Assembly (NCBI GenBank): GCA_023053545.1
Contig: JAKZAN010000007.1
Coordinates: 992,001-1,056,000 of the forward strand
Reading direction: 5' to 3'
Source of the DNA: Lepidurus packardi
Lineage: Eukaryota > Arthropoda > Branchiopoda > Notostraca > Triopsidae
Length of the DNA stretch: 64,000 nt
In this document: piece by piece, positions 12,070 through 35,246 of the stretch
Numbering within the stretch: position 1 is the stretch's first letter
How the letters are laid out: each line of letters opens with the position of its first letter
Translations under genes and position numbers: made by a program
Notes under the pieces: model-generated
What the model saw: the letters and a program-made list of their open reading frames with translations, nothing else
Database searches by the model: none
Told to the model about the DNA's origin: nothing

Positions 12070-12781
12070 ATGGGCTCGTCTTTGACGGTGAGGGCCCGGT
12101 GCTGGCAGATTTGTCTGCTATCGTTGGTTGCCGTGCACATGACAGCCTCAACTGTCCCAAGCGTGCCAAACGTTCGGTCGCAACAATGCTTTGTAACGCC
12201 TAAAGAGTACAATGACTACATTGTGGAAATGGTACGTAATTCGGATGCCATATTCACAGCCACCGTTGATCAGTTTCAGGCGCTCGAGACTGACCGGCCT
12301 GCAAATCGTGACAGTGATGGATCTTTCCAACGAGACATGCCGCTCAGGCATAAGTCGAGTTTGGATTTGGTTAACGTATCCACCAACAGTACCAACCCAG
12401 TTGCCCAAGTAAAGCTCAAGTCTATTATCAAAGGTGACCGCAATGTCCTAAGCCATCAGTCTACGTTGAAGCTTGTCTTCCAGCCAGCTAATCCCTCAGA
12501 AACCATCAGTAGCAGCGGGACAGCTTTGGGTAACGAACATATGATGCTCCGACATAAACGAGAGAAACTGAAAGAAGAAGAAGAGCTTTGGTGTTTGCAT
12601 GCTGACCCCCTTAACGTCAAGGATTCTCGGATTTTTTTCGTCAAATTACCCAAACCTGGAACCTATAGCAAGTCTGCAGCCAAACCGGTGGCAGACTTTT
12701 TTGTAGTCACCTCTGCTCCGTATGCAGTCTCGGTCCAATTACTGAGTCGCTTGCGAGCAGTAATGTACCAACAATCCAACC
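12070..12781 (+). CDS. AGRN: Agrin alternative first exon A: signal peptide plus NtA domain
   Basis: Encodes a secreted agrin N-terminus of 237 residues. A signal peptide (about 1-28, hydrophobic core CLLSLVAVHM) leads into a diverged NtA domain, the TIMP-like module by which agrin binds the laminin coiled coil. NtA landmarks: Cys40, the strand DAIFTATVDQF (about 59-69, matching NVVLTGTVEEI of vertebrate agrin), LKSIIKGDR, Cys175 in ELWC, and DSRIFF at 185-190. Two N-glycosylation sequons lie at NVS and NST. The exon ends TCC AAC C|GTAAGT in phase 1, so splicing to 35211 gives a histidine and continues in frame. The C-terminal segment (YAVSVQLLSRL) departs from the I-T-L-R-N-L pattern of other copies. 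ATG context is CAAAAAATGG. Use of this exon as a transcription start is inferred. Confidence 0.8.
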
Positions 12782-15700
12782 GTAAGTTTCTTAAACAGCG
12801 TCTTTATGTTAACATGTCTTAAGTCTTGCCTGACTTATGGTTTCATCTTTTAGCAAATTTCATTTACATTTTTAAACAGGATTTTAAGAGAAGAAACCAG
12901 AATTGCCTTATGAAATCCCAAGAAAGAGCTAAGAAAAGAGCGTTGGTTACCGTTGTCATAACTCAATCCACGCTATTAGACCATTGTTATTTAACTACAA
13001 CACGTTGACAGGTTACGGTTTCCCGTGCCCATTGGGTGGTCGCTTGGTCGTTTACCGAGTCCGTAACTATCGTTCTGGAATCCTCTGTTCTTTACTTTCC
13101 CCGGCCATTTCAAATATCTTTGTTGACGCTAATGTCCGGTCGTTAATTGCCTTGTATAAAGTAGGAAAACAAGATGAATTCTACTCGTGAAAGGCTGTAA
13201 CAGAAAACCAAGTCTTTTACTTTCCTGTATTGCCATTTGTACCGAAAACAGCATTGAGGCATGGCTAGGACTCCTTAAGGATCCAAATTTTACTGTCCGG
13301 ATTCTAACGGCTGAGAGTTTATGTTTTTTTTCCTATTTTTTTTTTCATCTCTCATCAAAAATCGAGGAAATAGGCTTGGACTGGGACTTGCGTATATAAT
13401 TCTTTCTTGGGCCGGGAGATCCTTATCGCACGCGGATGCTCGGCAAGGTGTAAACAGGGCGTTTTCGCGTTTCGCGCAAACAAGGTAGACGACGACTATC
13501 ACAGAGAAACCGAGAGCACTATAGTCTAGCTTGCGTTCTACACCCATAACAATGAAGGGCAATGGTCGTAAAGAGGCTCCAGTGTCAATTAAGAAAGGTG
13601 CTAGTTTATGTGGGTCATATGTAAATACCAATAAATCGATTCCGGCCTTGGATTAGCATGAGGAGGATTCAATGATCATGCCTGCTCAGAGATCAAAGGA
13701 GCACGATGACTCAGAAGCCATGATGTAGAGGCTCGTGTTATGCGAGTTCTTTTTCAATTGCATGACGTTCGACGTCCAAAAGCAGTACTATTGTTTAGCG
13801 TTATGGGAGAGTCGTTTTCGAACAGCTAAGACAATGAGGTCGGAAATCAATGCTTGCATCATCTTTCAGCTCGCCACAATGGAGTTTGATCAGCACTCAC
13901 GGAGGTCCAATCACGCAATCGTGGGATGACAATTGTTGTGACTGTGTCCATCTAATGTTAATTCATGTTAATAATGTTAATTCATGTCATCTCCGACTTG
14001 TATCCAGAGACCAGATAATCCAGTGCTGAAAGGGACTATTTCGCTTGAAGCGCATCCCTCTTACTGCAATTCCATAATGTATGCATCAGCTGAAACATTT
14101 GAAGCCCGTCACTTGGTACGACTGTTCTGTTGCGCTTGGATTTTTACACTCCGGGCCAAAATATCCGCTATCCGCTGATGATGATAGATGAGTGCGTCCA
14201 AAATTTTCAGGCCATGTGCCTAATTCCTTGTGCAATTCTCCACACCCGTTTTGCCAAGTCAAGTAAAGACATTCGAGGGGTCAACTCTTTGCTCACCGCA
14301 GGAATCCTTGAATTTACAGGCGCGCGTTATGAGGCTCTCGCCAGAGTTTTACAAGGAAATAAGCTTGATCAAGTTCCCATGCATACTTATAGCGGCCCCT
14401 CCTGGCTAACCCGGATCGTTTTCCCCTATTCTTTGTGTCGGCTTTTAACCTTTGACCCCCGTTCGAATCGGCCCCAGAAAAAGCTTCACCTTTAACGTTT
14501 GGCATGCAAGGGACAAGTTTTAAGAGGCTTTTTACGTCTCTTCCCAAATTCTATTCTTTCCTTGGTACTGGACTACTGCTCTTTTGGTACACATACCGTT
14601 CAAGGGTGCCTTTCTCCTGGGGGATCAAACTGTTTTGGAGTGTCGGCAAGCAACCGTAAACTGTGGCATGAATAGCGCTGTCCGGCCACACAGTACGACA
14701 CCTCTCACAACCTAAACTATTATCCGTTTTGACAGACATCCCGGATCACAATGCTGGAAGCAAAAAGGGTGAAAGCTGACTCTCACGTGGCCGTAAGGGG
14801 GAGGCGGAACCTTTGCTTTTATTTGGATACGTACATATACTTACGAGAGATTTCCGTTGAATCTGCAAACAACTAGGTATACATGAATCCGCTGAACATT
14901 CCGGGAAACAGGGCTTCACTCTAGCCACTCCTTTTGGCTCAAGCTATAGTGTTGCCTAGATATAATAAACGTTTCAATTACGGATCATTTGCATATGAAA
15001 AGAGCTTGCTTACCATTCAATAAAGGAGTAATAGAGACAAAGCAAATGGCCTTCCTTTTCTTGCCAGAGTGAATTGCGTTGAGACGAGACTAAGCAATGA
15101 AAAGCCTTTTGTCTTGCGTAATTATTACGGAATGTTCCACCAAACTTTGAAAGACCAATGTACCGTGTACACTATCCCATGATCAATTCCGACTGCGGTA
15201 AAAGCTTTTATCATGCCAATTTTCTGCAAGTTCTCCCACGACAGACGCGTGGGGTCAGACCGACGTCAAGCGGAATGAAATTATGCGTAGGAAGCTGAGC
15301 ATTCGGTTCTTTTCGTACAGGCAATCATTTGCAGGTGTTAAAACGAAGTTAATAAATACGAAACTGTAAGTTTTCCTTACAAAGATGTGTGCCAATGTAT
15401 CGGAATGAGGAAAAGATACAGGACAAGGGTTAAGAATAAAGCATTTCGCGGTTTTCGCCGTGTGGCTGCTGGAGGGCCATCAAACCATAAGGCCACAGGG
15501 TGCTTTTCCACCAGTTCTCTTCATGCTTGAGCCCAACCCTGGATATATACCTATACAAAGTATTTCTTTCCGTAGTTGTAGAGTACAAAACCAAACCTGG
15601 GCCATCAAACGCCTTGCAGTCACTCATTGGCAGGGCTAAAAGGTTCTACTCATCAAGATTTGAGACTTCTAATACACCCAGTACAATACCCCAAGACCCG

Positions 15701-15851
15701 CAGTGTATTCTATAACCTTTGCCGGCTTTTTATAACAAACCCCAGTGATTTGCATATCAAATCAAACCACTAAGACCTGTCCTTCATAGCTATAGTATGC
15801 AATTTGAGTGATTTGCCAGTTTGACAAAGTGCAATGTTTTCAACTTAGTAT
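12782..15851. other. Agrin alternative-start region, between first exons A and B
   Basis: Intronic for transcripts starting at exon A and promoter territory for exon B. Open frames on both strands (for example 13290-13631 minus and 14130-14495 plus) lack domains. ATTTGCAT octamers at 14987-14994 and 15748-15755 lie upstream of exon B, the second about 100 bp from its ATG. Confidence 0.5.
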
Positions 15852-16446
15852 ATGACTACAGCGAAAATGAAGAAGGTTACGTTACTTAAGTTGACTTTCG
15901 AAGTTTGTACACTGTTATGCCACATTGATCACGTGCTGAGTGAAGCCCGGCAGCAACAATGGAGCACCAAAGAGCCACCATTGAACGGATTTACACATGT
16001 TCACGTGTCAGAAAAAGAACTGCAACATAGATTACCAAGTGGGGAGAAAGGCTGCATGCCGGAAAGTTGGGGTGAAAAGCTATTTTCGTCTGAATTGATT
16101 TTTGCTGGAACACTGGAAAAGTTTGACCGCCGTCAAAAGCGTCATAAACAGGACAAGCAAGAGATGCTAAGCCTAAGTACTGAGCGAGGAAATCGTGTAG
16201 GCGTGGTTCGCATTAGGCGCGTATTTTGGGGAGACCGAACACTTTTTAATAAGACAATTCGTGTTCTAGTTCGGCGTTCCAATGACCGACGAAAAAGGTC
16301 TAAACTATGTGCAAGTGAAGTTGACCTCCGTGACTCTCGAATTTTCTTCGTTAAGTACGATAATGGCACGGAAATGTACCATCTTAATTCAAACCTTGTT
16401 CGGATATCCCTCGAGAATCTTCGACTCATCTTTCATCTTACTCGAG
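15852..16446 (+). CDS. AGRN: Agrin alternative first exon B: signal peptide plus NtA domain
   Basis: A second NtA-type start, 198 residues. Either the ATG at 15852 or the one at 15867 (MKKVTLLKLTFEVCTLLC) could begin the signal peptide; the second has the better hydrophobic layout and an AAA ahead of it. NtA landmarks: Cys68, ELIFAGTLEKF (about 81-91), VRIRRVFWGDR, Cys153, DSRIFFVKY from 161 and LVRISLENLRL near 182-192, which aligns with the laminin-contacting helix of vertebrate agrin. NKT and NGT are possible glycosylation sites. The region is strongly basic (RRQKRHKQ, RRSNDRRKRS). It ends ACT CGA G|GTAAAT in phase 1, fitting the constant acceptor at 35211 to give aspartate. Sequence identity to the other copies is low outside the motifs, so the duplication is old. 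Confidence 0.84.
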
Positions 16447-34957: not shown

Positions 34958-35123
34958 ATGAAATCCAAGGCAGGTCGAAGACATAGCGCTGTCGGAGTTG
35001 ACCTGCCCAGTCTCGGTTTATCTCCACTAACTGACCGTCAGCAAAAGAAATGGCTGGCAATTGCTGTTGCGTTGACAGTTATTGCGGTGACCATTATAGG
35101 ACCTGCCGTTTTTCTCTTGCTTC
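34958..35123 (+). CDS. AGRN: Agrin alternative first exon E: type II transmembrane anchor (TM-agrin)
   Basis: Encodes 55 residues that replace the NtA domain. A cytosolic N-terminus with basic residues (KSKAGRR, RQQKK) is followed by one hydrophobic segment at about 32-55, WLAIAVALTVIAV onward, with no signal-peptidase-like site. Positive charge before the segment predicts type II topology, so the whole of agrin would be outside. It ends TTG CTT C|GTGCGT in phase 1 and splices over an 87-nt intron to 35211, giving histidine. Vertebrate agrin has the same arrangement: a short TM exon alternative to the NtA exons, joining a proline-rich linker. That the sequence lies immediately before the first constant exon strengthens the call. 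Confidence 0.82.
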
Positions 35124-35210
35124 GTGCGTGCTTAACTTTGCTCTTAACAAACCATTTATTAAATTAATCCTGGTTATTGATCTACGAATTTGATTTGATT
35201 TTTCTTACAG

Positions 35211-35246
35211 ACGTGCCCTATCAGCCCCGTGCGCCCGTTGTGGAAG
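35211..35246 (+). other. AGRN: Agrin common linker exon joined by all first exons
   Basis: A 36-nt phase 1/phase 1 exon encoding [11 protein letters not shown] after the split first codon. Vertebrate agrin has a proline-rich linker at the same place (HFTPVPPTPPDAC), shared by NtA and TM forms. The acceptor is tttcttacag and the donor GAA G|GTATTA. Because it is symmetric it could also be skipped without loss of frame. Confidence 0.8.

Follow-up and report, generated by a model that had tools for sequence, protein, structure and literature searches.

In vertebrate agrin, a row of follistatin domains is followed by a pair of laminin-EGF (LE) domains and then by one more follistatin domain. In total, there are nine follistatin-related modules and two of the LE type (PMC2874008), and the differential transcription of first exons chooses between one start encoding an NtA domain and one transmembrane (TM) start (PMC2874008, PMC1939731). 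Here, we analysed a stretch of 64,000 nucleotides (nt) of the genome of Lepidurus packardi (contig JAKZAN010000007.1, positions 992,001-1,056,000, forward strand; 42.4% GC), hereafter the window, and searched the assembly from which it comes (108.6 Mb in 344 contigs). An earlier reading of this DNA, made from the letters alone (the sequence-only reading), had proposed an agrin gene with four tandem NtA first exons and one TM first exon, noting correctly that the vertebrate gene has one start of each kind. Our analysis makes it probable that the window contains a single agrin gene with a choice of five first exons, of which A to D would encode NtA heads and E a membrane anchor.

The locus resembles vertebrate AGRN in that a common body is predicted to carry either an NtA head, which is secreted, or a membrane head of type II, and in the nine follistatin-related and two LE domains of that body. 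It differs from it by having four NtA heads instead of one and no SEA domain in the pieces scanned here. With the agrins of invertebrates (C. elegans AGR-1, Trichoplax, echinoderms, and Ciona) it shares the agrin body, whose order in C. elegans is seven follistatin, two LE, and one follistatin domain (PMC1939731). NtA is present in the agrins of Trichoplax and Ciona, according to the legend of a supplementary alignment (PMC2874008), and in those of two sea cucumbers and one sea star, most echinoderms having none (PMC10381214). The sources disagree on two taxa: the NtA of C. elegans is listed in PMC2874008 and was not found according to PMC1939731, and that of the sea urchin is listed in PMC2874008 and absent according to PMC10381214.

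An agrin with more than one NtA is not described in the available parts of PMC2874008, PMC3927612, PMC1939731, PMC12445529, PMC3439447, PMC4224354, and PMC10381214, where the protein has one NtA or none. Nor was there one among the matches listed in the open-licence literature for agrin together with NtA, first exons, or alternative promoters, which agrees with the opinion of the sequence-only reading that such an array is undescribed. The closest arrangement is found elsewhere: clustered protocadherins and the chelicerate sDscam have variable exons in tandem at the 5' end, most often each with its own upstream promoter, that are spliced to a constant region (PMC4835542). The tandem 5' exons before a constant body are common to these systems and to our locus. 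The domains are unrelated, and those systems have more cassettes and neuronal roles, whereas here there are four NtA heads and an anchor. Hence, the choice between NtA and TM first exons and the placement of tandem 5' exons on a constant body were already known; what would be new is the multiplication of the NtA heads. The switch between laminin-bound and membrane-bound agrin through the use of first exons is a textbook example. If the prediction is true, it lends itself to multiplication, in the manner of the 5' exons of protocadherins and sDscam.

Five candidate first exons and one acceptor

The predicted first exons and the second exon that they would share are listed below. Coordinates are window positions throughout, and that of a donor is the G of its GT.

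12070..12781, plus strand: first exon A, hydrophobic N-terminus (ICLLSLVA), divergent NtA from about 12181, phase-1 end
15852..16446, plus strand: first exon B, weak signal-like N-terminus, NtA from about 16047, phase-1 end
25152..25944, plus strand: first exon C, signal-peptide-like start, NtA from about 25368, low-complexity insertion in the middle of the domain, phase-1 end
28774..29359, plus strand: first exon D, signal-peptide-like start, NtA from about 28873, phase-1 end
34958..35123, plus strand: first exon E, basic N-terminal tail of 31 residues, hydrophobic segment of 24 residues, phase-1 end at a weak donor
35211..35246, plus strand: shared second exon of 36 nt, phase 1 at both ends, acceptor at the 98.9th percentile

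The length of the open frames of A to D is beyond chance. Exactly four frames of at least 195 amino acids (aa) start with an ATG on the plus strand of positions 1-35000, and they are those of A, B, C, and D (250, 232, 268, and 235 codons to the stop); the minus strand has none, and 100 first-order Markov shuffles also gave none (longest: 188 aa). The frames are intact over 195-264 residues, with an in-frame stop 6-45 nt upstream of each ATG. The start codons of A to E, the open frames, and the common acceptor all lie where the sequence-only reading had placed them. It had also attributed a signal peptide and an NtA domain to each of A to D. The NtA part stands, by Pfam for B, C, and D and by a profile for A (see below), but the signal of B is weak: a hydrophobic stretch within the first 35 residues is evident in A, C, and D and least marked in B (N-terminal 8-residue hydropathy of 2.95, 3.23, 2.91, and 2.17, respectively). 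No DNA repeat of at least 30 bases occurs within 11000-36000, and thus none joins A to D, so the array is neither a recent duplication nor one made by the assembly.

Splice sites were scored on a generic matrix and given percentiles relative to all GT (donors) or all AG (acceptor) as follows.

A: 12782, ACC/GTAAGT, score 1.5, percentile 95.3
B: 16447, GAG/GTAAAT, score 3.9, percentile 98.6
C: 25945, CAG/GTAACC, score 3.75, percentile 98.4
D: 29360, AGG/GTATGA, score 2.0, percentile 96.2
E: 35124, TTC/GTGCGT, score -3.1, percentile 67.7

All five donors are in phase 1 and each predicted join to 35211 is in frame, which bears out the claim that A to E end one base into a codon before GT and fit a single acceptor. 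This acceptor is strong, with a score of 5.1, and the donor of the shared exon scores -0.03. When joined to the 36-nt exon, A and E give one 12-residue reading and B, C, and D give another. A second phase-1 donor of D is found at 29453 (TTG/GTATGT, score 1.5, percentile 95.3); the intervening 29360-29452 (plus strand) would extend the protein by 31 residues, with many aromatic and basic ones among them, and this donor is a possible alternative end of the head.

The position of the donors is regular: in all four heads a phase-1 donor lies 25-52 nt past the codon of the leucine predicted to contact laminin. As a control, we asked how many open-frame positions have a phase-1 donor with a score of 1.5 or more in the next 52 nt, and counted 493 out of 8,161 on both strands, or 154 out of 5,157 once the heads and the known genes of the plus strand were removed. 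The chance of four independent cases is then about 1e-5 or 8e-7, values that are rough because the limits were set post hoc and adjacent positions depend on one another. Between the ATG and the core cysteine, none of B, C, or D has an AG scoring above 2, and D has no phase-1 AG at all. Since they lack a usable acceptor before this cysteine, we take B, C, and D as first exons and not as cassettes.

Exon E is a credible type II signal-anchor start. It lies 87 bases before the shared acceptor and reads MKSKAGRRHSAVGVDLPSLGLSPLTDRQQKKWLAIAVALTVIAVTIIGPAVFLLL, i.e., a basic tail and then the hydrophobic segment, which is the order expected of a type II anchor under the positive-inside rule. We scanned the window for ATG frames with a high mean hydropathy over 20 residues and a phase-1 donor of at least -3.2 within 30 nt, the donor limit and the hydropathy threshold of 2.6 having been chosen to include E (2.64). 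At both 2.6 and 2.2, E was the sole such frame on the plus strand, with none on the minus strand and none in 30 shuffles. At 1.8, there were four on the plus strand and one on the minus strand, compared with a mean of 0.9 and a maximum of 3 in the shuffles, and at 2.7 the count was zero. The idea that E is an anchor head thus fits in sequence, place, and phase, but not in the strength of its donor. Scores of the probable donors within the agrin body run from -2.0 to 6.4 in a list that omits those under -2, which precludes a fair ranking of E against them.

Affinity of the four heads to NtA

The Pfam NtA profile (cut-off of 25.1 bits) matches B with 34.0 bits (E-value 2.9e-8), C with 28.6 bits in two stretches (1.3e-6), and D with 26.5 bits (5.9e-6). 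Altogether, 34 pieces were given to Pfam, some from outside the agrin body, which they covered in part. Three of the four exons thus match Pfam NtA, and A was recovered in another way. We searched the 349 frames of at least 60 aa of the window with profiles made from the other heads, using 8,000 shuffled sequences for comparison. The profile of B, C, and D finds A as the top frame after its own members (26.3 bits, E-value 1.3e-7; best shuffle 12.6 bits), and that of B and D finds it with 30.6 bits (4.7e-9). A single-sequence search with B gives E-values of 2.1e-5 for A, 0.0018 for D, and 0.095 for C. In summary, A ties to B and D in sequence, and B and D tie to Pfam NtA. No fifth NtA emerged from these 349 frames; the next best, at 59504 on the minus strand, has 7.2 bits with the profile of B and D, below the best shuffles.

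Comparisons with PDB give a similar picture. The profile of the four cores matches 1pxu, 3i70, 1jc7, and 1jb3 (E-values from 9.3e-7 to 1.3e-6) and 8s9p (0.0015), all of them agrin, and the only other listed match is an unrelated chain with an E-value of 0.18. With a profile of A, B, and D, the same five agrin chains (2e-5 to 0.023) are the sole matches at E-values of 10 or less. Exon B alone has no PDB match up to an E-value of 1 and, in a collection of 5.8 billion proteins, gave 38 candidates with none at 0.001. Searches for further NtA exons in the genome have little weight as evidence of their absence: the Pfam NtA profile scored three candidates and reported B only (contig C6, 1008077-1008421), missing C and D, and the proteins of A and D each found only themselves, the search with D missing B.

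The heads differ extensively from each other (pairwise identities of 19-29% among those compared, from MAFFT alignments and relative to the first sequence given) and keep some key positions. The first core cysteine is aligned by MAFFT in all four, and by eye a second one lies in each case 8-10 residues before the Asp of a D-S/T-x-I/L-F motif. The NtA domain has a disulfide between Cys2 and Cys74 (PMC3439447). The two cysteines of A to D match this pair, and the bond between them is putative. Two residues of helix H3, Leu142 and Val149, are laminin contacts of NtA (PMC3439447). The equivalent of Leu142 is kept in all four heads, and the position seven residues further, equivalent to Val149, is occupied by M in head A, T in head B, D in head C, and A in head D. 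The landmarks of the domain kept in every head are the cysteine pair, the D-S/T-x-I/L-F strand, and the contact leucine. The I-K/R-R-V motif proposed by the sequence-only reading proved not to be universal (A reads KLKSIIKG).

There are also insertions, long and of low complexity in C and shorter in A. That of exon C is a Ser/Ala/Gln-rich stretch inside the NtA at about 25480-25780 (plus strand). Because the heads differ in their loops and in the second contact position, they would probably vary in how strongly they bind laminin, or in the partners to which they bind.

Use of the heads and alternative explanations

In the scenario that we favour, each of A to D has its own start and would encode a signal peptide and a complete NtA, and E would encode a type II anchor. 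Each pre-mRNA would begin at one of these starts and be spliced from its phase-1 donor to the acceptor at 35211, so that the same body of follistatin, LE, EGF, and laminin-G (LG) domains would be preceded either by a secreted head, of which there are four, or by the anchored one. The head would most likely be chosen by start-site use, given that B, C, and D have no usable acceptor before the NtA core. Promoter choice may thereby select a laminin-binding head or one binding another part of the matrix, as initially suggested. We infer the transcription, splicing, secretion, and binding of the heads from the DNA.

Several results weigh against this scenario. The first concern the splice sites: on the generic matrix the donors of A and D are moderate, and that of E is weak. 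Others concern the heads themselves, which are remote from one another in sequence. A has no Pfam NtA match, its sole listed match being PTS_EIIA_2 with 17.1 bits (below the cut-off), and it finds no agrin when compared alone with PDB. C scores only 9.0 bits with the profile of B and D (best shuffle 11.0) and 12.8 bits with that of A, B, and D (best shuffle 12.9); as a consequence, its identity as an NtA depends on Pfam. The profile of A and B gives D 10.5 bits, against 10.3 for the best shuffle, and those of C and D for A (5.9 bits) and of A and C for D (5.8 bits) remain under their best shuffles. In the four-core comparison with PDB, profile positions 125-163, in the last quarter of the domain, contribute most of the score. 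The exons are not set apart as coding by their synonymous codon usage, since A to E exceed 201, 173, 227, 230, and 187, respectively, of 239 noncoding frames. Finally, the 500 bases upstream of A to D have no word of 7 or 8 bases in common, in a crude test in which the shuffles had means of 0.86 and 0.02. They share 24 six-mers (shuffle mean 15.7, maximum 32). The absence of common words means that a promoter code similar to that of protocadherins is unsupported here.

We considered three other explanations. The foremost, which we regard as unlikely, is that A, B, C, and perhaps D are separate small genes for secreted proteins consisting of NtA only, which arose from the agrin head by tandem duplication and lie upstream of it by coincidence, and that only D or E starts agrin. 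Read-through past the donors soon meets a stop (after 13 residues in A, 34 in B, 4 in C, and 40 in D), such that messages left unspliced or ending early would still suffice for complete NtA proteins that are secreted. Yet phase-1 donors would serve no purpose in single-exon genes, and they lie close behind the domain in the four heads. Polyadenylation-type words (AATAAA or ATTAAA) do not point to separate 3' ends either: within 1500 nt past the donors they are absent in C and D, and their numbers past A (one, at 847) and B (two, at 300 and 590) are near the window average of 1.1 per kilobase.

A slightly less probable explanation is that only one or two of the NtA heads are used together with E, the others being old duplicates in the process of loss. 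This would account for the divergence and the insertions of A and C, and for the lack of conservation of the second laminin-contact position. However, four frames that remain intact at 19-29% identity are unlikely in the lack of selection, the cysteine pair and the donor are kept in every head, and no repeat of at least 30 bases links the heads. That B, C, and D are cassettes available for inclusion after A, by which one agrin would carry several NtA domains, is very improbable: the phase-1 junctions would preserve the frame, but the shortage of acceptors between start codon and core cysteine described above speaks against it.

Under the favoured scenario of five first exons in one gene, a more specific proposal is that the locus works as a head exchanger, in which the choice of one out of five promoters determines whether agrin carries the anchor or one of four matrix-anchoring NtA heads, each with its own partner specificity. 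We give it even chances. If true, a same growth-factor- and receptor-binding body could be deployed in distinct layers of the matrix or on distinct cell surfaces within one animal. An array of four divergent heads would also supply natural variants of the laminin-binding site with which to probe NtA recognition. Searching the genome with the laminin N-terminal domain, we found five loci, one of which has the whole domain in one exon and is presumably a netrin. Taken together regardless of chain type, these loci give no obvious sign that laminin chains have multiplied on a large scale in parallel with the four heads.

Agrin body and neighbourhood

The window contains one agrin body, downstream of A to E and on the same strand. 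Its main features are listed below as separate parts, and several exon ends are approximate.

35648..35866, plus strand: first follistatin/Kazal exon, phase 1 to 1, Kazal_2 43.4 bits
40712..43708, plus strand: Kazal/follistatin domains 2 to 8, outer limits with approximate exon ends
44124..44493, plus strand: two laminin-EGF domains (Pfam)
44603..44959, plus strand: ninth Kazal/follistatin domain (Pfam)
45023..48864, plus strand: EGF-like and laminin-G part, some modules below the Pfam cut-off, end approximate

Kazal_2 is over its cut-off in nine pieces, of which eight precede and one follows the two laminin-EGF domains. Downstream, EGF is over the cut-off in two pieces, and laminin-G in 46673-47167 and 47171-47422, which are parts of one domain as judged from their profile positions. 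The laminin-G match of 48703-48864 is below the cut-off, and the three LG domains are not demonstrated. No SEA domain was identified in the 34 pieces given to Pfam, including 44851-45669 after the ninth Kazal, this set covering the body in part. SEA is also absent from the agrins of echinoderms and C. elegans (PMC10381214, PMC1939731) and therefore does not define invertebrate agrin.

Upstream of the array, the neighbouring gene is represented by a frame on the minus strand (774-1454) that encodes an inositol polyphosphate kinase domain (Pfam IPK, 41.2 bits). Downstream of agrin, at about 51800-55900 on the plus strand, a row of EGF repeats precedes a hydrophobic segment; the match to EGF_PEAR1L is below the cut-off, and we take the row to resemble the receptors of the MEGF10/PEAR1/draper group. 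Rfam had no match in the window at the gathering threshold.

Elsewhere in the assembly, many COX1-like stretches with in-frame TGA codons occur in large contigs (L007 and others) and are likely mitochondrial insertions. One of them lies on the same contig as the window (C6, 697216-698557); it aligns closely to mammalian COX1 under the invertebrate mitochondrial code, its reading being good when TGA, AGA, and ATA are taken as W, S, and M, respectively. This code speaks against an origin from sponges, cnidarians, placozoans, tunicates, or vertebrates. The small contigs L004, L005, L006, L012, and L013 carry stop-free genes similar to COX1 or gyrase B that look bacterial, and the assembly appears to contain bacterial DNA. 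Two of the gyrase-B-like frames resemble, by eye, those of Bacteroidota.

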